22,381 nucleotides of DNA, from the IMG/VR virus record IMGVR_UViG_3300025118_000174, positions 1-22,381 of that record. The stretch is one strand, 5' to 3'. The DNA comes from a virus. The notes under the pieces were generated by a model, which had not been told where the DNA came from, made no database searches, and was given only the letters and a program-made list of their open reading frames with translations. The position numbers and the translations under genes are program-made. Shown here piece after piece: positions 1,939 to 20,082 of this stretch. Every line of letters starts with the position of its first letter. Within the stretch, counting starts at the first letter, position 1.

Positions 1939-3206
1939 TCATTGACCTGAACGTCCAGATTATCTAGCCACCCATCTACATCAAAATTTTCTTTTATTTC
2001 TAAAGAGTTATACATTTTTTTATACTGGTCTTCTTGTGAAAAATTCTTACATACCCATTTTTTCAACTCATTGGCTTGTTTTTTAAATCTTCCATAATCC
2101 TTATATACTTCTCTTAGTCTCATTTTGTAAGAGCCTTGCTGTGCATAACACCACATAGCGCCCTTTTCCAGCACCCCATCCCAAACAACTTCATCTGCTA
2201 TTGGTTGTATGTCATATTCCACGCATGCGAAATATGGCTTTATTTTTTCATTACCAGTCTTCTTGTCTTTCTTTGGCGCGCAGAGAAAGTCTAAGTGGCC
2301 ACTCCATTCTGGTGCTATTACAGGGATCCCAGAATATGCTGCTTCAAACAACGGGAGACCAAACCCTTCGCCATGGGCCAGAGAAACAAGTGCTTTTATT
2401 TTTGGATGTTTGTAAATAGAATGAATCTCTTGGTCCGTCATATCGCCATGGAAAAAATAAACTTTACATTTTCTATTTTCATATTTTTTCAACAAGCTTG
2501 TTAGGCGATCCTCTATTCTATGCCGATCCATAACAGAATTACCTTCAGCAAACGTTTTTACAACGAGGCCGACTTCAGGATTATCAATGAACTCTTCAAC
2601 AAACCAAGTGATTGTATTTTCTAAATTCTTGCGGCCGGCCCATTGCGCCACGGCTAAAAAATTAAAATCCGTTTTTAATTTCAAGTTGATTTTTGATTCT
2701 TCATATTTTTTAACAGGGTAGTGTACAACCTCTACAGGCGTTGTACATTTCAGTGGAAACTTTTGTCCAGTCTCTTTGTGCACCGCATCATATACTGTGT
2801 TTTGGAATCCGCTCTTCGAATGATTGGAGATGGTAATTACTTTGTCCATTAAATTGCATTTTTCTAGCCACACCGGGGCGACTATGTTGGTTTCTATCCC
2901 CGCAGTCACACCAATGTTTATTGGCGCAAATCGCTCCCATTCGTTTGGAATCGTAACCTGAATGCTGGCATCATACTGTGGGTTGCCTTCTTGGTGGTAG
3001 TGGGCCGTCTTATTAATCAAGGAGTCCAGCCAGCGGCGCTCTTCGTCATCATTATATATCCACCCGCATTTTCCCCAATTAACTGGGAGTAGATAAATGT
3101 CTATTTCGTCCTCGTGTTGTCGCAAAGCCCTCAAAACAAATCGCGAATGTTCACCATACCCTGATCTGGTAAGTACCGGTGCTCGTACTAATACTTTCTT
3201 TTTCAT
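1935..3206 (-). CDS. GT4-family glycosyltransferase
   Basis: A 423-aa GT-B glycosyltransferase. I place the start at the ATG at 3206-3204 (MKKKVLVRAP), not at an ATG 21 bases upstream. The internal one has a strong AAGGAG seven bases ahead and overlaps the previous stop by ATGA. The N-terminal loop SGYGEHSR fits the glycine-rich acceptor-side loop. The middle segment FLAVAQWAGRKN is the usual start of the donor domain, and the C-terminal part carries the family E-x7-E motif within HGEGFGLPLFEAAYSGIPVI. Full length for the family. The product is cytoplasmic and probably adds a sugar to a growing glycan. It sits in the middle of the five-gene run and is very likely co-expressed with it. Confidence 0.85.
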   Translation of the reverse strand: MKKKVLVRAPVLTRSGYGEHSRFVLRALRQHEDEIDIYLLPVNWGKCGWIYNDDEERRWLDSLINKTAHYHQEGNPQYDASIQVTIPNEWERFAPINIGVTAGIETNIVAPVWLEKCNLMDKVITISNHSKSGFQNTVYDAVHKETGQKFPLKCTTPVEVVHYPVKKYEESKINLKLKTDFNFLAVAQWAGRKNLENTITWFVEEFIDNPEVGLVVKTFAEGNSVMDRHRIEDRLTSLLKKYENRKCKVYFFHGDMTDQEIHSIYKHPKIKALVSLAHGEGFGLPLFEAAYSGIPVIAPEWSGHLDFLCAPKKDKKTGNEKIKPYFACVEYDIQPIADEVVWDGVLEKGAMWCYAQQGSYKMRLREVYKDYGRFKKQANELKKWVCKNFSQEDQYKKMYNSLEIKENFDVDGWLDNLDVQVNE

Positions 3207-4471
3207 ACAATCTCCTTTAAAACCCAACGATTATCATACGGTTTCCGCGTATCCCATGATCCACTTTCGTCGTGAACTGCTGTGAATAACTCATCCCACC
3301 TTTTAACAAAATTATCAAAATTATAATTTGTCATTACGTGATTTCTGCCCTTTCTTCCTAGTTCGCTCCTTTCCTCTTCCGACATATTATATATTTTTAA
3401 TAGCGCATCAACAACAGATTCTTCAGAAAGTCTATCCTCGTAAATCCATGGTATTTCCTGGGATCCTATGATACCTTTCGATGTTGGTTTTAAGCCGATG
3501 CCGAAGAATTCTTCTCCGTCAGTTACTTGTTCCTGTAGGCCACCGGTCATGTTAACAATAATCGGAGTTTCGCACGCAAGAGATTCCAACGTTGCCAAAC
3601 CAAACCCTTCGGCATCTGAAATATTGACTGTACAATCTGCCATATTATATAACATGGACAAGATCTCGGGTTCGACCTTCTGCTGTGAAAAAAGCACTTC
3701 TCCATTCGTTAACCCAAGGTGATTAATAATTTTTTCTAAATCCTGGCCATGTGCATCTTTAATATCTGTGTGCATTATTAGGCATGCTTTGTCGTTTCCA
3801 ACTACATCCAAAAACTTTTTAAACCAAAAAATTAATGAGCCGCTCTGCTTTCGTCTCGCGTTTCTGTTATTCCAAAAAAAGATGAACTTATTTGGATCGT
3901 ATTTTTCATCGAAGCTATTTTTAGCAAATTCTTGAACGGGCGCCTCATCGTGCTTTTTAAACGATTCTGTATTTACTGCATGTGGTAAATAAATCGATTT
4001 TACGGCTGGTGCGACCGTTTTAACAATATCGTCCGTTACTTTAGAAATTGTTACGACCATGTCGTTAGACTCGTAGTATTGTTTGTTATATGTCGGATAC
4101 GGATAATTATCCCAAACGTGATAATAAATCATAGGAACTAGCGGACGAATTTCATTTTCTATCTCCCACAGCCAGCCCCAAAAACGAGGATCTGTCATAA
4201 ACCAAAGTATGTCTGGTCTCTCTTGCCGAAGCATAGACCTTACAATTTCTTGGGATCCATACCCATCTACAGGAAAAGTAACCCAGTCATCGCCCCACTC
4301 TTCTGTCTTAATTGGGTTGTGTCCGGGGTGGGCCATAGCTCCCCCCAAGCTGACAAACCTATATTTACCGGTTTGTAGCATGCTTTCTATGATATATCTT
4401 GTTTGAGTCCCCACGCCGGATGGAGCGAAGGGCATATCACTGATAGTCATGATCTTAATTTTTTCACTCAT
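3203..4471 (-). CDS. GT4-family glycosyltransferase
   Basis: A 422-aa GT-B enzyme and the first gene of the glycosyltransferase run. The N-terminus MSEKIKIMTISDMPFAPSGV has the glycine-rich loop (SGVGTQTRY). The linker to the second domain contains FIFFWNNRNARRKQ, the position where GT4 enzymes usually have G(R)xxxxKG. The donor-binding E-x7-E motif is in DAEGFGLATLESLACETPI, followed by TGGLQEQV. A GAGG sequence lies about nine bases before the ATG. It resembles the next gene closely enough in layout that the pair may come from a duplication, but I could not align them fully. Acceptor and sugar are unknown. Confidence 0.85.
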   Translation of the reverse strand: MSEKIKIMTISDMPFAPSGVGTQTRYIIESMLQTGKYRFVSLGGAMAHPGHNPIKTEEWGDDWVTFPVDGYGSQEIVRSMLRQERPDILWFMTDPRFWGWLWEIENEIRPLVPMIYYHVWDNYPYPTYNKQYYESNDMVVTISKVTDDIVKTVAPAVKSIYLPHAVNTESFKKHDEAPVQEFAKNSFDEKYDPNKFIFFWNNRNARRKQSGSLIFWFKKFLDVVGNDKACLIMHTDIKDAHGQDLEKIINHLGLTNGEVLFSQQKVEPEILSMLYNMADCTVNISDAEGFGLATLESLACETPIIVNMTGGLQEQVTDGEEFFGIGLKPTSKGIIGSQEIPWIYEDRLSEESVVDALLKIYNMSEEERSELGRKGRNHVMTNYNFDNFVKRWDELFTAVHDESGSWDTRKPYDNRWVLKEIV

Positions 4472-5261: not shown

Positions 5262-5570
5262 TTATGCACCTTTTTCTGTTGTTTTGCTCGTTGTTTTTCT
5301 TTTACTACGAGTTGTTGTATTTTCATTCTTCACTATTTTCGAAACTTTGAGGATCCACGTACCTCTAGACTCAGCCTCTTTGCAAAAATTACAAAGCTCC
5401 TGTGGGCCATCGACGCTCTCAACTTTATAAGATGGGTGTTTCTTTCGAAACTGACCAATATAGGCTTCCCTATTAATTATTTCTCTTTTTGCAACTGGCG
5501 GTCTGGCTTCATACCAGGCGATGGAAGCCTCAATTTTTACAGTGTTCTCATCTATAAACTCAATATTCAT
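5262..5570 (-). CDS. Small protein of unknown function
   Basis: A 102-aa protein I do not recognise. The first 60 residues look like a compact alpha/beta fold (MNIEFIDENTVKIEASIAWY). A CNFC pair follows, then a strand-rich stretch, and the protein ends in a basic Thr/Ser/Lys tail (TTTRSKRKTTSKTTEKGA) that is probably disordered and could contact nucleic acid. The two cysteines alone do not establish a zinc site. A strong AAAGGAAAAGGA lies before the ATG. It overlaps the upstream peptidase gene by eleven bases and abuts the nuclease gene, so it is expressed with both. Confidence 0.7.
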   Translation of the reverse strand: MNIEFIDENTVKIEASIAWYEARPPVAKREIINREAYIGQFRKKHPSYKVESVDGPQELCNFCKEAESRGTWILKVSKIVKNENTTTRSKRKTTSKTTEKGA

Positions 5571-6267
5571 AATTTTCCTTTTCCTTTATACTGCTTTCTA
5601 ATAGATCATTAATTTTATTATACAGCGCTGGGCTTATCTTTTTTAAATACGTCCGGTCTCGCAGGAAATAATTTTCAAATCCGTTTGCGAAATATTCACG
5701 AAGAGACGTTGTAGAATACGGAGAATAAAATAAGCCCGTTGTCAAAGTGCTCAATTTGGGGTACCCAACAACATTGTAAACATAGTGATCAAAATATTTA
5801 TCATATTCTACTTCATCAAACCGAGAAGCAGAGGGCTCTAAGCCTGCTTGATCTAAACGATGGTAAAGGGTTTTTCTTTTTCCTTTAAACTCACTCTCTA
5901 TAGCAAAATCAGAATAAATTTGATCGCCATATCTTTCTTCAGCCGCATGCGCTACTTCATGAATAATATCGTCCAGCATATCATTTTCATTGTCTTGATG
6001 GTTCGTAACATATATGGCATTATCTTTATATTTTGCATTAAAGGGCAAATCGCCGTTTTCAAAATCCTTAAAGGAGCCCACGTAGATTGAATCAATATTT
6101 TCGAACAATGAAGTTGGAATCAGACTTTCTATAGTGCTTAATACGTATTCTAAATCAAACCCGAAAGGAAGTTGGTCCTTAATATAAACTAGCTTATTTC
6201 CATAAATATATTTTTCTCTGCTGTTCTTTTTTGCCTGCTCGGCACTCTCAGAGATATAATTCATCAT
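5560..6267 (-). CDS. Zincin-type metallopeptidase (HExxH)
   Basis: A 235-aa protein with the zinc-binding motif IIHEVAHAAEE near residue 100 and a downstream glutamate in LREYFANGFENYF near residue 195 that would supply the third ligand, as in gluzincins. It lacks a signal peptide, so it would act in the cytoplasm or in the particle. The region between the motifs (FDEVEYDKYFDHYVYNVVGY) is not one I can assign to a named family. The start is the first of two tandem ATGs, overlapping the previous stop as TAATG with GAGGGA upstream. Substrate is unknown; host-protein cleavage or virion maturation are both possible. It is the first of two HExxH proteins in the window. Confidence 0.7.
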   Translation of the reverse strand: MMNYISESAEQAKKNSREKYIYGNKLVYIKDQLPFGFDLEYVLSTIESLIPTSLFENIDSIYVGSFKDFENGDLPFNAKYKDNAIYVTNHQDNENDMLDDIIHEVAHAAEERYGDQIYSDFAIESEFKGKRKTLYHRLDQAGLEPSASRFDEVEYDKYFDHYVYNVVGYPKLSTLTTGLFYSPYSTTSLREYFANGFENYFLRDRTYLKKISPALYNKINDLLESSIKEKENYEY

Positions 6268-6577: not shown

Positions 6578-7888
6578 TTAAAGTATTTTTGCTGCTAATG
6601 TGGCAACTTTAGATCTTTCGCCTTTGACTAGGGTGATGTGTCCTGATATATCATGGCTTTTAAACTTTTCTACTGCATATGCTAGCCCGTTTGAAGTTTC
6701 ATCAACGTACACGTTATCAATTTGATCAATGTCGCCTGTTAGCACAACTTTTGTATTCTCTCCCACTCTTGTAATTATAGTCTTTAATTCGTGTGCTGTC
6801 AAGTTCTGAGCTTCATCAATTATAATAAAAGCGTCAGCGATGGATCTACCCCTTATATAAGTAAGCGCTTCAATCTCTATTGTGCCCTGCGATGTGTACA
6901 TTCTTAAAGTTTCTTTGTCGTTCCCCATTAAATATCTTAAGTTATCTTGAATTGGGCTGAGCCATGGTGTCATCTTTTCTTCTAACGTGCCAGGCAAATA
7001 CCCTATATCTTTCCCTAGCGGCTGAATCGGTCGGGACACAATCAATCTTTTGTAGGGTGTGCTTTTCGACCCTTCTACGACTTGCGCTAGGCCGGCTGCA
7101 ATTGATAAGAGCGTTTTCCCGCTTCCTGCTTTTCCAACCAGCGTAACTACCTGAACTGTTGGATCCATTAACAACTCCAAGGCAAAATTCTGTTCCTTGT
7201 TCCTTGGTCGCACGCTCCAAACGCCTTTTTTGTGTTCCCCGTTAATTCTTTTAAGCGGCGTTGAATAACTATAAAATCGGGCGAGTGCCGATTTCTTTTC
7301 ATTTGCATTTGAAACTAACATTAAAAAATGATTTGGCTGCAGCTTAATATCTTCTTCGTATAGATATGTTTCTTCTCCATTATAGAATTGATCTATAATC
7401 TGCTCGTCAACAAGGTGCGTTTTGACTCCGGTATACAAGTGCTCGGTATCTTTGACCACTTGATTGATAATATAATCTTCTGTCAAAAGCCCCAAGGCGT
7501 CGCATTTAACTCGCATATTAATGTCGCGGGATGCTAATATAACTTTTCTGCCTGGGGTTCTTTGTTGTTCTTCTAGCGCAACTGTGATTATTTCGTTATC
7601 TGCTATAGAAATATCCAAAAGATCACTTTCCGCGCCCTTGACTGTTAGAATACCGTGCCCTTTTGCGATTCTGACTCCTTTATATAAAGAGCCTTTCTCT
7701 CTTAGCGCGTCGAGCGCTTTAATTGTTCTTCTAGCATGCGACCCGACACTATCTTGTCGTTTTTTGTGTTTATCGATCTCTTCTAGGACTTTGAATGGAA
7801 CAATTATATCATTGTTTTGGTAAGCAGTTATAGCGTTGGCATCTGTCAAGTACACGCTAGTATCTAAAATATAAGTTTTTTTAGCCAT
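6578..7888 (-). CDS. phoH: PIN-PhoH family ATPase / ribonuclease
   Basis: A 436-aa protein with an N-terminal PIN nuclease domain and a C-terminal PhoH ATPase, the PhoH2/YlaK arrangement. In the PIN part I see YILDTSVYLTDA (Asp9), FKVLEEIDKHK and ASRDINMRVKCDALG, which give the acidic metal-binding residues. In the ATPase part are Walker A VGKAGSGKTLLS near residue 253 and Walker B FIIIDEAQNLT near residue 356, followed by the family's HELKTIITRVG. Related proteins couple RNA unwinding to sequence-directed RNA cleavage, so a role in phage-directed mRNA turnover is plausible. No clear Shine-Dalgarno precedes the ATG. It is transcribed divergently from the plus-strand cassette. Confidence 0.92.
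   Translation of the reverse strand: MAKKTYILDTSVYLTDANAITAYQNNDIIVPFKVLEEIDKHKKRQDSVGSHARRTIKALDALREKGSLYKGVRIAKGHGILTVKGAESDLLDISIADNEIITVALEEQQRTPGRKVILASRDINMRVKCDALGLLTEDYIINQVVKDTEHLYTGVKTHLVDEQIIDQFYNGEETYLYEEDIKLQPNHFLMLVSNANEKKSALARFYSYSTPLKRINGEHKKGVWSVRPRNKEQNFALELLMDPTVQVVTLVGKAGSGKTLLSIAAGLAQVVEGSKSTPYKRLIVSRPIQPLGKDIGYLPGTLEEKMTPWLSPIQDNLRYLMGNDKETLRMYTSQGTIEIEALTYIRGRSIADAFIIIDEAQNLTAHELKTIITRVGENTKVVLTGDIDQIDNVYVDETSNGLAYAVEKFKSHDISGHITLVKGERSKVATLAAKIL
6774..6802 (-). promoter_or_regulatory. Intragenic consensus sigma70 promoter inside phoH
   Basis: TTGACA at 6802-6797 and TATAAT at 6779-6774 are 17 bases apart on the minus strand, a perfect consensus inside the coding sequence for LTAHELKTII of PhoH. 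It points toward the end of phoH and the genes to the left. Because the bases also encode a conserved PhoH motif, the match may be coincidental. Confidence 0.4.
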
Positions 7889-7983: not shown

Positions 7984-8448
7984 ATGAAAAAAACATTAAT
8001 ACTTTTATTCTTGCTTATACCAACCATGGTGCAAGCAAAAGTTTCTTTGTGTGAAAAAGGTTGTACACCAATGGATAGCGCCCAAATCAACGCAATCAAA
8101 GGCTTTTTGTACGAAGTAGCCGAATCACAGGAGCCGTCGATCAAAAAACAAATTTCACCAAAGTTTGCAAGATGTCTTGTGTGGCTAGACACAATACACA
8201 AAGACACAAAAAAACACATCGTTACGAAATATAATACTGAAGACGCGTCTTTAGTTAAGGCAAGTGTGCAGTTTATAATCGATGTGGCTATGGGCCGATA
8301 TTCAGAAATGTCACCTGAAGCTACAATAGCGCGTTGGACAGAAAGCGGGGCTAGAGTTATAGCGCAATACAGAGAAACAAAAGCAAAAGATAAAAATGGC
8401 AAACAAAAGATAAAAATACAATGGAAGTTGGAGTTGCCCACAAAATGA
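7984..8448 (+). CDS. Exported protein of unknown function
   Basis: A 154-aa protein with a clear Sec signal peptide: MKKTLILLFLLIPTMVQA followed by KVSL, with predicted cleavage after VQA. The mature part has two close cysteines (LCEKGC) that could form a disulphide, a helical middle (DSAQINAIKGFLYEVAE) and a lysine-rich end. I do not recognise the family. AGGAG lies eight bases before the ATG. Its stop overlaps the start of the serine protease gene (ATGA), so the two are made together and both go to the envelope. It might be a partner, chaperone or inhibitor of that protease, but this is only inference from pairing. Confidence 0.8.
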   Translation: MKKTLILLFLLIPTMVQAKVSLCEKGCTPMDSAQINAIKGFLYEVAESQEPSIKKQISPKFARCLVWLDTIHKDTKKHIVTKYNTEDASLVKASVQFIIDVAMGRYSEMSPEATIARWTESGARVIAQYRETKAKDKNGKQKIKIQWKLELPTK

Positions 8449-9197
8449 AATATCTTTTGCTAATGTTGTGGATACTGCCCTTTATGTCGACGTGTACGTA
8501 CCAACATGTTCACCACCACAATAAAAACACCTATAATTACACAGGAGAGGAGACGGCACATAATTTACCGCGAAGCTCCTTTGCTTTTGTTAAAGTGAAA
8601 GAAGAAAGCAGAATATGTCTTTTTGAGAGGTGCTTCAAAATTGGTAAAACTGCATACTATACAGGATCCGGCTTTGTAATCAAAAACACTAAGAACGGAA
8701 GTTTGGTGATCACGGCGGCGCACGTATGTGCCTCTGGGCCGAATGCGTTCTATACTACGTATGAATTGGTTGATATAGATAGTAAAAAATACAAAGCTGA
8801 ATTATTAGCAACGGATGATTCGAATGACATATGCATGTTATATGCAAAAGATCTCAGAAGGCCGGCCGTCGGAGTTTCAGCGCAAAAGCCACTACAAGGG
8901 GAGCGCATATATAATATTGCGGCGCCCGTTGGAATATTTGATCACCAAATGATGCCAATAATAGATGGCTTTTACAACGGAGAAGCTTCTAATAAGTGGG
9001 GGCTAGATCGCGTTGCGGTGTACACATTGCCGGCGGCGCCTGGGTCTTCTGGTTCAATGGTTTTAAATGACAAATTTGAAATTATAGGAATGGTTCACTC
9101 TTTGCTTGTAAAATTTAAAGTGATTTCTATCGGCCCAACTTACGAATCTCTAACAAGCTTTATTGAACTCAATATTAGCAAGTACTCGCACCTCTGA
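8445..9197 (+). CDS. Trypsin-like serine protease, exported, possibly lipid-anchored
   Basis: A 250-aa chymotrypsin/HtrA-fold protease. The start is the ATG at 8445 that overlaps the previous stop (ATGA), giving MKYLLLMLWILPFMSTC, a signal sequence ending in a cysteine in an imperfect lipobox (MSTC); an earlier in-frame GTG/ATG region would bury the signal. The catalytic triad is complete: His93 in ITAAHVC, Asp128 in SNDICML, Ser202 in APGSSGSMV. There is no PDZ domain after the protease part. A histidine-rich stretch (HVHHHN) follows the anchor. It probably works at the envelope of the infected cell, for example on surface or envelope proteins. It ends four bases from the convergent gene on the other strand, leaving no room for a separate terminator. 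Confidence 0.85.
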   Translation: MKYLLLMLWILPFMSTCTYQHVHHHNKNTYNYTGEETAHNLPRSSFAFVKVKEESRICLFERCFKIGKTAYYTGSGFVIKNTKNGSLVITAAHVCASGPNAFYTTYELVDIDSKKYKAELLATDDSNDICMLYAKDLRRPAVGVSAQKPLQGERIYNIAAPVGIFDHQMMPIIDGFYNGEASNKWGLDRVAVYTLPAAPGSSGSMVLNDKFEIIGMVHSLLVKFKVISIGPTYESLTSFIELNISKYSHL

Positions 9198-15096: not shown

Positions 15097-16245
15097 CTAA
15101 TTTCCATAAACGAAGAGTTTCAAGAACTCTTCATCTCCAGGTTGCGGATCTTTTCCATTTAATATTCTTACATAGTCGGCTTTCATTTGTTCAACCATTT
15201 CGGCTGTAATTTCTCCACCAGACTCAATGTTTAAAATATATGGATTGTCTGGCGCATACGCGACAATTGTCTCTTCTTCCGCCGCAACCGGAATTGTGGC
15301 CTGCGGCGCTTGTTCTTGCACTGCCGCTGCGGCCGCAGTATAATCGACGGCGCCTTTTTCTCTTATTTTTTGTTCTACACCTAAGCGAAGAGTGTTTATT
15401 CTTTCTGCTTCTTCCATATTCCCAGCCTGGTAGGCTGCAATTTCCGCGTCGACGATCTCGGCTAGCTGTTCTGCTAATTCTTTATCTTCCTCATCCAGGG
15501 GCGCCCCACCGTCTTTATCGTTGCTGTCTGTCCAGCCTGGCCAGCATTCATCTCCGAAACGAGGGCATTCGTCATCTCCGATCAATGGTATATAAGGAGC
15601 AATCTTCCATAGCCTTAAAAGGTTGATGGCGTAATGCCATGGATCCGCATATTTTAACACCTTGTCATAGAATTCTGGGGCTCCATATGCTGCTGCCATC
15701 ATGCCAACTTCATATCTCCAACTAAATGGGCCCCATTTTGAACCTATTATTCTACGCAGCATCCCTGGAGTTTTAGATGCCACTTGAGCGGCAACGCCTA
15801 CTTCTGCCGCGGCAGGCGCAGCGGGCGCCAGTGGTAGCAACAACCCCAGCGCTAGCGCCGTTTCAACGGCGCCTAGGCCTGTCTGAAAATATTCTTGTGT
15901 TTCTTCCTTGTATTGTTCTGGTGTCATTCCACCCAACTTACATGCTGCATCCCAACCTTCTTTGGTGGTCATATCGATTTCTGGGTGTTTCTTTGCTATA
16001 ATGGCCATCATTTCGGGCGTCAGATTGCACTCTTTATCCTTTAAGCTAATTCCTTCTGTACCAGCAGCCCCGGGGCCTAATATATTTGGCATCCAGTCCG
16101 GGGGGTCAGTTAAGAAGGATGGCAAGCCTGTGAATTCATCTTCTTTCAGCAGCTGTCTTGATTTTTCAATTGCTTTTGCCGCTTCTTTTAAAACGCTATC
16201 GTCTGCCTTTCTGGCGTTACCTTTATCTTTAAATGATATTTTCAT
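15097..16245 (-). CDS. Alanine-rich putative virion protein
   Basis: A 382-aa protein of unknown function. It starts MKISFKDKGNARKADDSVLK and has LKE-A at about residues 20-23, which fits a T4 gp21-type cleavage site. Residues about 125-160 are a long hydrophobic, alanine-rich stretch (GAVETALALGLLLPLAPAAP) that could cross a membrane or pack in a helix bundle. A second Ala/Glu-rich helical region follows near the C-terminus. A Cys pair (ECPRFGDECWPG) is in the middle. It starts 17 bases inside the end of the proline-rich gene. No enzyme motif is seen. A pilot or internal head protein that meets the host membrane is a reasonable guess. Confidence 0.65.
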   Translation of the reverse strand: MKISFKDKGNARKADDSVLKEAAKAIEKSRQLLKEDEFTGLPSFLTDPPDWMPNILGPGAAGTEGISLKDKECNLTPEMMAIIAKKHPEIDMTTKEGWDAACKLGGMTPEQYKEETQEYFQTGLGAVETALALGLLLPLAPAAPAAAEVGVAAQVASKTPGMLRRIIGSKWGPFSWRYEVGMMAAAYGAPEFYDKVLKYADPWHYAINLLRLWKIAPYIPLIGDDECPRFGDECWPGWTDSNDKDGGAPLDEEDKELAEQLAEIVDAEIAAYQAGNMEEAERINTLRLGVEQKIREKGAVDYTAAAAAVQEQAPQATIPVAAEEETIVAYAPDNPYILNIESGGEITAEMVEQMKADYVRILNGKDPQPGDEEFLKLFVYGN

Positions 16246-16933
16246 ATTTCACATGTTCCTTCAATGTAGAATATTTATCTTCATCATATGGAATGCCGCG
16301 GCACTGGTACCATGCGACGGTGCCCGGTGTATACCGGCGACAATCCTTTTCCTTTGTTCCTGTCTGCGCCGCGGCGCCACCAGTTTCTTCTTCGGTACCA
16401 AACAATTCCCCAGCACCAATGAGGGCTCCAGCATAACCGGCCCACCTCAACAATTTGCACTTTTTAGGGTGTTTTTTGCAAAGATCTTTAAGTTTCTTGA
16501 GAAAACCTTTTCGTGACGATTTACTTGCCGCCTCTAGCGCTGCACGGCGGCCTGCACTTAGTTTTGGCGCCCGCGGTCCCGGCTTTGGTACTGGTTTTGG
16601 CCCGGGCTTTGGTACTGGTTTTGGCCCGGGCCTTGGTGTTGGTTTTGGTTTGGGAGTCGGCTTTGGAAGTGTTCTTGTTGCGAGATCTCTTTGCGCTTTT
16701 CTTCTGGCCGCTTGTGCAGCAGTTTGTGTTGTTTTTTTACCGCCGCCGGAAAATATACCTCTAACAAGACGGTATACCCCCTTGAAAAAGCCGGTCGTGG
16801 CCTTTGCTCGCGCCTGCTCTTGAAGAGGGACGCCCCTACCAACAATTTCAGATGCCTCTCTATATATGGCCGCCGCAATCTTCTTTAATGTTGATTCGGG
16901 AATTGATGTGTTAGAACGCTCCTTCCAATACAT
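16229..16933 (-). CDS. Proline-rich protein; probable -1 frameshift extension of the metallopeptidase gene
   Basis: As a separate gene this encodes 234 aa starting MYWKERSN, but the ATG has no Shine-Dalgarno sequence. The same frame stays open upstream for 27 sense-looking codons (ELTEFDLAKEIVNDPTNTLG, then LIKTFYL) to 17014, exactly where the metallopeptidase gene has its A10/AAAAAAG slippery tract in the -1 relation. I therefore think it is made mainly as the C-terminal part of a fusion of about 508 aa. Content: a helical N-terminal part with IYREASEIVGRG, a Lys-Pro-Gly repeat region (PKPGPKPVPKPGPKPVPKPG), a basic patch (LKKLKDLCKKHPKKCKLL), a short hydrophobic span (WAGYAGALIGAGELFG) and a Cys-pair tail (DCRRYTPGTVAWYQC). 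The repeat may be a rigid spacer. Function unknown. Confidence 0.65.
   Translation of the reverse strand: MYWKERSNTSIPESTLKKIAAAIYREASEIVGRGVPLQEQARAKATTGFFKGVYRLVRGIFSGGGKKTTQTAAQAARRKAQRDLATRTLPKPTPKPKPTPRPGPKPVPKPGPKPVPKPGPRAPKLSAGRRAALEAASKSSRKGFLKKLKDLCKKHPKKCKLLRWAGYAGALIGAGELFGTEEETGGAAAQTGTKEKDCRRYTPGTVAWYQCRGIPYDEDKYSTLKEHVKYENII
16581..16652 (-). repeat. 24-bp tandem repeat coding for Lys-Pro-Gly spacer
   Basis: Two identical 24-bp units (16581-16604 and 16605-16628) and a third, degenerate one (16629-16652) stand head to tail in the proline-rich gene. Each unit encodes eight residues built from PGPKPVPK. Repeats of this sort change copy number easily by slippage or recombination, so length variation between related phages is likely. 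Confidence 0.85.
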
Positions 16934-17007
16934 AAGATAAAATGTCTTAATTAAACCTAAAGTATTAGTTGGATCGTTTACTATTTCTTTTGCAAGATCG
17001 AATTCAG

Positions 17008-17754
17008 TTAACTCTTTTTTTTTTGCCCTTCGGCTTCTTTTAATTCTTCGCTAGATGTTTTTTCGCGGGATTCGACGCTTTGTGCAACTTGATGTAGTTG
17101 ATCGCTAGATTCTTCACCTTCTTCAAGGTTTTCATCTTCATCTTCATCAAGGGTTTTTTGTCCAGTTTGGTAATCACCCCCCTTGCTGGAGTCCATATAT
17201 GCGTCTAATTCTTCCTTTAGGGCTTTATAACCCCACTTATCCATTAAAAGATTATTAAGTTCTTGATCTCGCCAATCTTTAGTTGACATGTTCTCTTCTC
17301 CTATCAGAGCTTCTCTATAAATAGTCTCATATAAAGGTAATTGCTGTTTTATTCCATCTTCCCAATCTCTAAAACATAAATTACCCACTTTATAAGCTTC
17401 TTCTTCCATACTTCTCAAGTGTTTGTTGTTTTGCGCATATCCCAGTTGAGTGGAAATAGGCTTATCAAATTCTCCCCTTAGATTTTGGCCATGGTGCACC
17501 AGTTCATGAGCTACCGACCGTAAAACGTCTTTTATGTGACGTCCGGCTACAAAGATTGTTATTTCCATATTTTGCGGATCATACTGTCCGGTTCTTCCGA
17601 ATGGGTTTGCAGCATTTTTTTCATCGCCATCAAAATTGATTGTCGGGGGCCTGTTAAATCCAACTTGTTTTTGCACGTATGGCACTAATTTGCTTGTCAA
17701 GTCTTTTAGCTTAGAAAGGTCCTCGGAAGTGTTGTTATTAATGGTACAAGGCAT
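17008..17754 (-). CDS. Zinc metallopeptidase (HELVH), zero-frame product
   Basis: A 248-aa protein. The zinc motif is VAHELVHHGQNLRGEF near residue 83, preceded by a strand ITIFVAGRHIKDVLRS, which gives a minigluzincin-like core; the third ligand is probably in SMEEEAYKVGN about 35 residues on. After the peptidase part comes MSTKDWRDQELNNLLMDKWG, which looks like the start of a separate phage protein, then an acidic linker (DEDEDENLEEGEE) and an ELKEAEGQ that fits a gp21-type cleavage site. The gene ends in the slippery A10 tract. No Shine-Dalgarno precedes the ATG. It lies between a cell-wall hydrolase and structural-looking genes, so it may act in the particle or on host proteins after entry. 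Confidence 0.75.
   Translation of the reverse strand: MPCTINNNTSEDLSKLKDLTSKLVPYVQKQVGFNRPPTINFDGDEKNAANPFGRTGQYDPQNMEITIFVAGRHIKDVLRSVAHELVHHGQNLRGEFDKPISTQLGYAQNNKHLRSMEEEAYKVGNLCFRDWEDGIKQQLPLYETIYREALIGEENMSTKDWRDQELNNLLMDKWGYKALKEELDAYMDSSKGGDYQTGQKTLDEDEDENLEEGEESSDQLHQVAQSVESREKTSSEELKEAEGQKKKS
17014..17024 (-). promoter_or_regulatory. Programmed -1 frameshift site (A AAA AAG in an A10 tract)
   Basis: The end of the metallopeptidase gene reads CAA AAA AAA AAG AGT TAA on the minus strand. It holds the heptamer A AAA AAG in the right phase, followed by AGT, the same as the E. coli dnaX frameshift site, and the zero-frame stop follows at once. A -1 slip enters the frame of the proline-rich gene. 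The ten-A run would also favour transcriptional slippage. AGGG stands a few bases upstream; no strong downstream stem is obvious. An assembly error of one base in the A run would give the same picture. Confidence 0.6.
17289..17302 (-). promoter_or_regulatory. Strong internal ribosome-binding site and start in the metallopeptidase gene
   Basis: AGGAGA at 17302-17297, seven bases before an in-frame ATG at 17289-17287, is a far better start signal than that of the full gene. It would give a 93-aa protein beginning MSTKDWRDQELNNLLMDKWG (17008-17289), or a longer one through the frameshift. Its sequence resembles the beginnings of independent marine-phage proteins. Confidence 0.5.
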
Positions 17755-17760
17755 TGTATA

Positions 17761-20052
17761 TTAAATAGTTTGTCTTTTAGTTAAAATTTTTATTTTTATT
17801 TTTTGCAGATCTGCGGATTCAGCCAACTGACGTGTCCTGTGCTCGGGGCCCAATTTTTCACCAGTTACCGGATCGTGCTCTATTGGAAGCCCCGGGGCTT
17901 TAAGTTCGATACGATAACACGTGTCTCCCCTCCGAATTGTGCCTGGTGGGCATTCTTTAACTATTGGCAGTGCTTCACTAGCATCTGGAGAAGTTGTAGT
18001 CGTTGGCGCAGGTGTTGTGGGGCCCCCTTTGTAAGCGGCACCTGGAACACCCGGAACCGGAATGGCCGACGGCATTGTAGTGGCGATAGGCGCGCCTATT
18101 TTCCCCGGTTCAAATCCTAGCTCTTGGATTTGTTTTCTAAATTTTTCAATAGCCTTTTCTGCGTTTTTTCTTCCCGCATCATTCGCCGCGGTATTGTACG
18201 CCTCGATAGCAGTATCTAAGCTCTTTTGTATTTCTTTAGCCTTTTCTTGATTAGCTTTCCCTGTTGGCGCCTTCCCGGAAGCTTTTGCTTTCTGTAGATT
18301 GTCATATGCTTTTTGATGCTCTCTGCCAAACTTATAGTCTAGGCCATGTTTAGATAATATGCCTTCGGCTCCGCCCTTCTCTGGAAAGTACATATCCAAC
18401 TCCATATAAAATGTATCAAATTTGAATTTTTCTATCGGGCTGATACCATGGACAAACTTGCCGCGGCGGTGTCCGGGTCGCGACACGGTCACACCAGGCA
18501 CCATTACTGTGCTTGTTCCAACAACGCCCGGTTTTCCTACTTTTGAGGCAATTGCTTCCGCATAATATTGTGCGGGCATGCCCCTATAATGTACTTTATC
18601 ATATCTTATTTCTTTTGGTGTCATACCGCTAAGTCTTTCGTCTTTCCCCACCCATTCCAACATTGAAACATATTTTATTCCAACTTGTTCAGCTAGTTCT
18701 GCGAGAATTTTATCTACAACGAGTCTTCCTCGTTTAATTCTTTCTGCTTTATCTGGTTTGGTAATTGACGAATGTCTGTATGCTGGACCAAACCATACAA
18801 CGTTGGGTGTTATATCTTTTAACTTCATCATAAACGGTAAAGCTTGTGCGTTAAGATAATTTCTTACACTTTTTTCATTCGCCCCATAGTTTCCTCTCCA
18901 TGAATCATTACCCCCCAGGCTAACAATAATTTGTGTGGGGTGTTTGCCTTTAATAAAATCGGACGTCCATTTTTTTGTGTGCGGCTTCTTTTTAGTTAGA
19001 ATAGAGGGGATACCATCTAAGGTTTTATTCCAGAAGTTGGCCCCGGAGGCGCCTCTAGCGATTCTAACTATATTTGCGCCACGGGATCTTAGCATACTTT
19101 CCAATTGTGGGCCCATATGAGTTTTCCCCCAGCCGGTAATGCTTCCAACCATTTGAGAATCGCCAATTATAATAATTGTTTGTCCTTCTAAATCTTGATC
19201 AATTGTTTGTCTTGGTGCCGCACGGCCTGCTGGACTCCGGCCGGCACTAATTGCAGAGCCTGCGGCCAAGGAATCCCCAGTCATAAGTTTGCCGCTATCG
19301 AATTGGCTCATTATTTGTGGGTTTTGTTGTTGGAAAATTTTAGAATAACGCATAACTCTGCTAGTATAGCCTTTTCTGTATTTGCCTAAATATTTGCTCG
19401 TTGTACGTCTAAAATCTGCAAAATTTCCTGTTCGCGCTGCTCTGTTCGCGGTACCCCTAAACCAACTACCAACACTGTTATTAACCCAAAACGCTATCAG
19501 TAAACTGCTTATTCTGCATGGATCATTAAAGAATGCGCTAACAATTTGATCTGGGCTGCCGCCCGGGCGGTTTGTAGGAAGGCCCCCTAGTCTAAGAAGT
19601 TCCCAGCCCATAACCTGATTGGTGCCCCACGCCGTAACGCGAACTGCAGATTTGGGCGCTATTTTATAGGCCCTGTGAAAATAAGAATTGCTCCCTTTTT
19701 TATGGTCGTTGTAGACTCTTTCTGGTGTTGTTAAACCTGCACGTACTAATGCACCATAATCTTCCCCGTAAAGTCTTGTCGCGTTCCGGAGCAAGTGTGC
19801 ATTAAACGCACGAGAGAGGCAATTACCACCAGATTCCGCTTTTGTCATGCCGGCAATCCATGCTGGGCTAACGCCAGACAACTTGGAGGCCTCTACTATA
19901 TTATTTATCTCTTTTGGCGTAAAAGCTTGTTCGACAGCAGCTGCTTCTTTTAATATTTTTATCTTCACTTTTTTAGCCTTATGGGGAGTTATAGACAATA
20001 CTATTAATAATGCAAAAAGCCATATAAATATTCTTTTTCTTGTTGCACACAT
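17761..20052 (-). CDS. Muramidase plus SGNH-hydrolase fusion with N-terminal membrane segment
   Basis: A 763-aa protein. It starts with a basic residue cluster and a hydrophobic span (RKRIFIWLFALLIVLS), a signal peptide or signal-anchor, then KKVKIKILKEAAAVEQAF. Residues about 45-240 resemble N-acetylmuramidase (DUF3380-type): catalytic glutamate Glu73 in KAESGGN, VTAWGTNQVMGWELL, and a KYLGKYRKGY close to the end. Residues about 288-500 are an SGNH/GDSL hydrolase: GDSQMVG near 294, SLGGNDSWRG near 379 and the D-x2-H motif YDKVHYRG near 486, so Ser, Gly, Asn and Asp/His are all present. Then come a helical region, a Thr/Pro linker (APTTTTSPDA), a Cys pair (ECPPGTIRRGDTCYR) and a tail with QLAESAD. 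It would cut peptidoglycan glycan strands and remove an acyl group. No Shine-Dalgarno sequence is seen. Confidence 0.8.
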   Translation of the reverse strand: MCATRKRIFIWLFALLIVLSITPHKAKKVKIKILKEAAAVEQAFTPKEINNIVEASKLSGVSPAWIAGMTKAESGGNCLSRAFNAHLLRNATRLYGEDYGALVRAGLTTPERVYNDHKKGSNSYFHRAYKIAPKSAVRVTAWGTNQVMGWELLRLGGLPTNRPGGSPDQIVSAFFNDPCRISSLLIAFWVNNSVGSWFRGTANRAARTGNFADFRRTTSKYLGKYRKGYTSRVMRYSKIFQQQNPQIMSQFDSGKLMTGDSLAAGSAISAGRSPAGRAAPRQTIDQDLEGQTIIIIGDSQMVGSITGWGKTHMGPQLESMLRSRGANIVRIARGASGANFWNKTLDGIPSILTKKKPHTKKWTSDFIKGKHPTQIIVSLGGNDSWRGNYGANEKSVRNYLNAQALPFMMKLKDITPNVVWFGPAYRHSSITKPDKAERIKRGRLVVDKILAELAEQVGIKYVSMLEWVGKDERLSGMTPKEIRYDKVHYRGMPAQYYAEAIASKVGKPGVVGTSTVMVPGVTVSRPGHRRGKFVHGISPIEKFKFDTFYMELDMYFPEKGGAEGILSKHGLDYKFGREHQKAYDNLQKAKASGKAPTGKANQEKAKEIQKSLDTAIEAYNTAANDAGRKNAEKAIEKFRKQIQELGFEPGKIGAPIATTMPSAIPVPGVPGAAYKGGPTTPAPTTTTSPDASEALPIVKECPPGTIRRGDTCYRIELKAPGLPIEHDPVTGEKLGPEHRTRQLAESADLQKIKIKILTKRQTI

Positions 20053-20082
20053 ATTAAATAGTTAGAATCGTTCATTAAGGCT

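Follow-up and report, generated by a model that had tools for sequence, protein, structure and literature searches.

A minus-strand gene in a virus record of 22,381 bases (the whole of which is called the window here) encodes a peptidase-like protein whose reading frame stops just after a run of ten A's, from which the -1 frame continues. The features of this junction and its recurrence in other genes suggest a two-frame gene that carries a poly-A slippage site and probably yields the protein in two forms, one short and one long.

Reading frames at the junction

The 0 frame encodes 248 aa and ends GGG CAA AAA AAA AAG AGT TAA, exactly the ending on ten A's that the initial annotation of this DNA had described (Table 1). 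The TAACTGAA that follows closes two frames on the minus strand, with a TAA at 17008-17010 that stops the 0 frame and a TGA at 17004-17006 that stops the +1 frame. The heptamer A AAA AAG was found in the phase given by the annotation, with AGT after it; alone it is weak evidence, since the loss of one A from a long A-run followed by G produces this phase one time in three.

The -1 frame comprises a 27-codon coding lead-in, a proline/lysine-rich linker and a CKKHPKKCKLLRWAGY module. The annotation had described it as running through 27 reasonable codons into the downstream frame, and it proved to be open well past them. By the window's own codon usage, the 27 codons ahead of the ATG at 16933 scored 0.29 bits/codon, against a median of 0.25 (5-95% range, 0.02-0.51) for real 27-codon segments; for out-of-frame segments of this length the 95th percentile was about -0.1, and only 10-12% of them were open. 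In the 81 bases that separate the run from this ATG, the other two same-strand frames scored -1.0 and -1.7 and were rich in stops. Since these 81 bases score as coding in the -1 frame, translation of that frame most likely proceeds from the run and does not start at ATG 16933. The annotation had also noted that this ATG has no ribosome-binding site. The absence was confirmed, but the peptidase gene, like the two genes upstream of it, has no Shine-Dalgarno sequence either, so its absence at the ATG is little evidence and was rejected as an argument.

The run is the sole A or T run longer than eight in the whole window and the only A10 in the 877 kb made up of the window and its kin loci, where in-frame A-runs of 6, 7, 8 and 9 occurred 349, 96, 14 and 1 times, respectively. 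No stable hairpin was found next to it (z 0.15, first 70 nt), and a longer stretch of 125 nt gave a z of -1.93 with no hairpin adjoining the slip site. The Rfam dnaX element did not match, and stimulators of the hairpin or Shine-Dalgarno type were not a feature of other junctions either. The signal appears to be the A-run itself, as in polymerase slippage, and ribosomes shifting to -1 on A AAA AAG may also contribute.

Table 1. Coordinates of the features of the window gene and of similar junctions in other loci.
Feature	Location	Strand	Remark
0-frame ORF	17008..17754	-	HExxH zincin-like domain and acidic linker; C-term EGQKKKS*
HELVH (HExxH) zinc-binding motif, residues 83-87	17494..17508	-	H83, E84 and H87 invariant (n = 48 aligned)
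SD-like GAAGGG	17026..17031	-	5 nt 5' of heptamer; poor spacing for -1 stimulation
Run of ten A's, candidate slippage site	17015..17024	-	exactly 10 A, then G (17014)
In-phase slippery heptamer	17014..17020	-	A AAA AAG
3' context G AGT TAACTGAA	17003..17014	-	common to other junctions
-1 frame, 261 codons and stop (16231-16229)	16229..17014	-	open throughout, no further stop or shift
First ATG of -1 frame	16931..16933	-	no Shine-Dalgarno sequence; probably not the start
Portal/MuF-like pair meeting at A10, second frame opening there	L099:6038-8436, L188:2-1617, L117:2900-3100, L177:3563-5742
Conserved junction set 1	L136:3260-5193, L139:2743-4634, L235:322-2939		L235 has A12, downstream part similar
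Conserved junction set 2	L236:2027-3369, L321:12265-13316, L350:3177-4699		A8, A9, A9
Conserved junction set 3	L341:1115-1791, L346:5050-5756		A9
Anaerolineae Mg-chelatase AAA/VWA, -1 at A9/A10 G TCA TAACTGAA	L356:612-2686, L364, L365, L382

The peptidase-like domain and its relatives

The structure of the N-terminal 175 aa was modelled fairly confidently (mean pLDDT, 82.5), and the HExxH motif sits in helix 74-93 of the model. The matches to the modelled fold were weak and zincin-like (IrrE-like and YbeY; E 3e-3 at best), and the peptidase part had no confident profile match to a known peptidase family. The gene adjoins a muramidase/GDSL-esterase-like gene. Because the genes around it in this large tailed phage are putative virion genes, the likely purpose of the junction is to fix the proportion in which a probable virion peptidase is made short or long; we infer a virion-associated peptidase made in two lengths. 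The sequence AACTATTTAAT occurs at 17755-17776 and at 20053-20074 (minus strand), just 5' of two consecutive genes, and is possibly a late promoter. Elsewhere, the window encodes a second HExxH protein (5560-6267, minus strand), whose ATLF match was below the Pfam cut-off (E 3.7e-5) and which is read only as containing a zinc-peptidase-like domain, a PIN-PhoH fusion protein (6578-7888, minus strand), and, amid otherwise minus-strand genes, two plus-strand genes (7984-9197), one for a trypsin-like peptidase.

IMG/VR contained three close relatives of the peptidase (L002, L003 and L004, 60-74% identical) and numerous more distant ones, the best 80 of which were kept of many; no relatives were found in bacterial genomes. 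The frame is unbroken in all three close relatives, which encode 642 aa (L002), 835 aa (L003) and 547 aa (L004). In L003, a peptidase part 60% identical to that of the window is followed, in the same single frame, by a homologue of the C-terminal module, and GFLKKLKDLCKKHPKKCKLLRWAGY of L003 aligned with GMVRKIAGWCKGNPGKCALLGFAGY of the window -1 frame with a pairwise E of 3e-6. The C-terminal region of L004 had no significant match to the window -1 frame. Since L003 carries both parts in one frame, the long fusion is probably the ancestral product, and the window gene probably either depends on a -1 shift or has undergone the loss of one A. The A-run and the frame break were found in no relative of this gene examined. 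The homologue alignment proposed in the annotation, which was to show the two parts either in one frame or separated by a conserved slippery sequence, thus gave the former in L003 and did not give the latter.

Among the other relatives, the peptidase domain is joined to long low-complexity tails, and in Flavobacterium phage immuto it lies inside a protein annotated as NMN adenylyltransferase. Two loci (L005:4460-5758 and L006:5001-6299) appeared, by eye, to combine the peptidase domain with LysM-like and M23 endopeptidase-like parts in one frame. No near-identical second record of the window was found when we searched by the C-terminal part and by the junction, whatever the length of its run, and the length of the run therefore rests on one assembly.

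The junction in other phage genes

We scanned for the same junction in other genes; many of the comparison loci were fetched by pattern, and they are metagenomic records of mixed quality. With the pattern CAAAAAAAAAAGAGTT, seven nonredundant genes (by our own grouping) were read straight through and two switched frame (L091 and L099). A scan of IMG/VR for CA10GNNNTAA, which fixes the phase and leaves the fate free, identified ten other ORFs of at least 100 codons that end there, and a continuation of at least 100 codons was present in the -1 frame in eight of them and in the +1 frame in one. With the window included, TAACTGAA follows the run in five of nine -1 switches. Two more scans combined a run with the TAACTGAA 3' context, and a -1 frame open for 30 codons or more was counted as a switch. 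Runs of A9 or longer gave 14 other -1 switches, no +1 switches and 12 straight-through genes; among the matches listed, A8 runs gave at least three switches and at least six straight-through genes, and A7 runs no switches and at least 28 straight-through genes. Switching thus rose with run length (p = 6e-6, with the A7 and A8 counts taken among the matches listed).

After CA10GNNNTAA, TAACTGAA was present in 9/24 coding cases (straight-through or switching) and in 0/65 noncoding ones, and it also followed A10 in 4/15 straight-through genes. Read in the -1 frame, it gives [LIV]TE. Since straight-through genes carry it too, what recurs may be a KKKx[LIV]TE peptide rather than a signal for recoding. 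The site of the T4-type prohead protease is [LI]xE. Such a site after the run was considered and set aside, as the same LTE/ITE is present in dnaX and Mg-chelatase.

Three sets of phage genes each keep a -1 junction at runs of A8-A12, and one has a match to a virion structural PHROG. In L136 and L139, the A10 is kept in both at a Ks of 0.4-0.5, and the downstream -1 frame has a Ka/Ks of about 0.27. Two further loci carry A10 runs. One (L091:1651-2518) contains a tail-assembly-chaperone-like pair whose frame changes by +1 or -2 at the run, and has weak matches to Phage_TAC_1 and Phage_tail_T, just under Pfam's cut-offs. The other (L143; listed regions 1109-2170 and 3107-4273), which has the window's cytidylyltransferase-like gene, carries A10 GNNNTAACTGAA in another gene that is read straight through; slippage at this site would truncate the product.

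A portal gene and a MuF gene met at such a run in several loci, and the portal-MuF junction of L099, L188 and L117 also counts among the conserved ones. In L099, a Mu-type portal (Portal_Mu, E 7e-44) continues in the -1 frame into MuF (Phage_Mu_F, E 5e-18). The portal gene of the isolate Winogradskyella phage Peternella_1 (L117; MT732475) carries A10, and MuF homology starts about 80 bases 5' of where MuF is annotated to begin, in the frame that the run opens. In a faecal phage (L120:2300-2700), portal and MuF form one frame with A10 at the junction, and in a Bacteroides phage and Flavobacterium phage pippi8-1 they are two separate genes. Judged from these sequences, the portal and MuF genes at A10 look like a recoded pair. 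In a literature search that covered a minority of subscription journals, we found no report of a portal-MuF pair or a virion HExxH protein recoded in this way.

These junctions bear on the alternative that the annotation had raised, an assembly or sequencing error by which a true run of 11 A's, and thus a plain single-frame fusion, was read as ten. The single frame of the three close relatives, the fall of the break exactly at the longest homopolymer of the window and the existence of only one assembly of the run are all consistent with an error. However, an in-frame A11 would itself be exceptional, with no in-frame run longer than nine in the 877 kb, and the junctions in other records go in the -1 direction, are kept between independent assemblies of diverged homologues and are present in known recoded genes. 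Errors alone are insufficient, since a frame switch is seen in over half of the coding TAACTGAA cases whose run is A9 or longer, and all of these switches would have to be wrong in the same direction. An error at the window run is thus unlikely.

A real but unselected one-base deletion, which would leave the gene newly broken or phase-variable and make any long product incidental to slippage, we consider improbable: it would agree with the hypermutability of long A-runs (PMC1088944) and with the failure of this gene's relatives to keep the junction, but the downstream frame still looks fully coding along its entire length, and the form of the junction is identical to that of the conserved cases. 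Two independent genes, the second starting at ATG 16933 or by re-initiation past the TAA, are scarcely credible even though adjacent genes are common in phages and the neighbours also lack Shine-Dalgarno sequences, given the coding lead-in of 27 codons ahead of the ATG and the joining of both parts in one protein in L003.

Proposed mechanism and comparison with known systems

Recoding at the run, as predicted in the annotation with products of 248 and about 508 aa, is therefore the best-supported reading, although the run that it requires is absent from the close relatives. On a faithful A10 message, most ribosomes would end at the TAA and produce the 248-aa peptidase-domain protein. Transcriptional gain of one A would produce an A11 mRNA on which reading goes on in the -1 frame; alternatively, a ribosome may slip back one base on A AAA AAG into the same frame. 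The -1 product of about 508 aa would consist of the peptidase domain, the proline/lysine-rich linker and the C-terminal module. The sequences show the run, a coding -1 frame, a single-frame relative and a junction of this form that recurs and is conserved in other genes; we infer that slippage occurs here, as well as the machine that slips, the product ratio, the virion location and the peptidase activity. Sliding of the ribosome is possible on iterated AAA codons (PMC4363877), and in many bacteria about nine was found to be the A/T run length at which selection against slippage shows (Baranov et al. 2005; PMC1088944).

In bacterial genomes, the junction pattern matched Mg-chelatase of Anaerolineae, in which the AAA part is followed by the VWA part in the -1 frame, and dnaX of Flavobacteriia. 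We read 31 Flavobacteriales dnaX loci. The first ORF was 367-390 aa in 23/31; among these 23, a run of 10 or 11 A's lay no more than about 60 bases from the stop in 22, and the -1 frame went on for about 200 codons in 18. The remaining eight were single frames of 640-708 aa without a run at their end. The ten-A run is near-invariant across the order (L412-L427), and TAACTGA follows it in several.

We tentatively propose that tailed phages may convergently use a compact cassette of A8-A12 followed by G NNN TAACTGA(A), with the 0 and +1 frames closed right after the run, to control the proportion of the short to the long form in virion proteins such as portal-MuF, head/tail accessory proteins and the window peptidase, by a logic common to bacterial dnaX and Mg-chelatase. 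Such junctions are usually annotated as two genes or written off as sequencing errors. If they are real, phage genomes contain overlooked virion enzymes made in two forms and overlooked portal-MuF fusions, which a simple searchable motif would recover.

The likeness to E. coli dnaX drawn in the annotation held for the in-phase heptamer followed by AGT, with a stop soon after in one frame, but did not extend further. E. coli dnaX needs a Shine-Dalgarno sequence spaced about 10 nt upstream and a hairpin, and its shift makes the short product, whereas the window has no hairpin and a badly spaced SD-like sequence, and its shift would make the long one. E. coli dnaX is therefore not the best analogue; the poly-A slippage of two-ORF dnaX and Mg-chelatase is a better fit. 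The parallel with the gpG/gpGT tail chaperones, which like the window gene would give two products with a common N terminus from a phage gene, was not upheld, since neither part of the window gene matched tail-chaperone domains in Pfam or PHROGs.

In Thermus thermophilus dnaX (PMC1088944), mixed mRNA lengths were proposed to arise by transcriptional slippage on a similarly long A-run (A9), but there the genomic frame encodes the long form. In the two-ORF dnaX genes described by Antonov et al. 2013 (PMC3711429), nine of which have ten A's, ORF 1 ends in an A-run as in the window, the -1 frame continues and recoding gives the long tau form; these are clamp-loader genes conserved across a bacterial order, whereas the window gene is a phage peptidase-like gene. 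Mg-chelatase I/D likewise has a -1 junction at A7-A11 and fused single-frame homologues, and the Anaerolineae genes have A9/A10 G NNN TAACTGAA in common with the window. Mg-chelatase differs in being a cellular enzyme with gene-cluster conservation and reporter-measured efficiency, its A7, A9 and A11 cassettes giving 10, 40 and 63% frameshift product in E. coli (PMC3711429). Conservation of the junction among homologues, a mark of the poly-A two-ORF genes, was not found in the relatives of the window gene but was found in other phage genes. By these comparisons, the window gene would add a phage peptidase-like case to the poly-A recoding already known.
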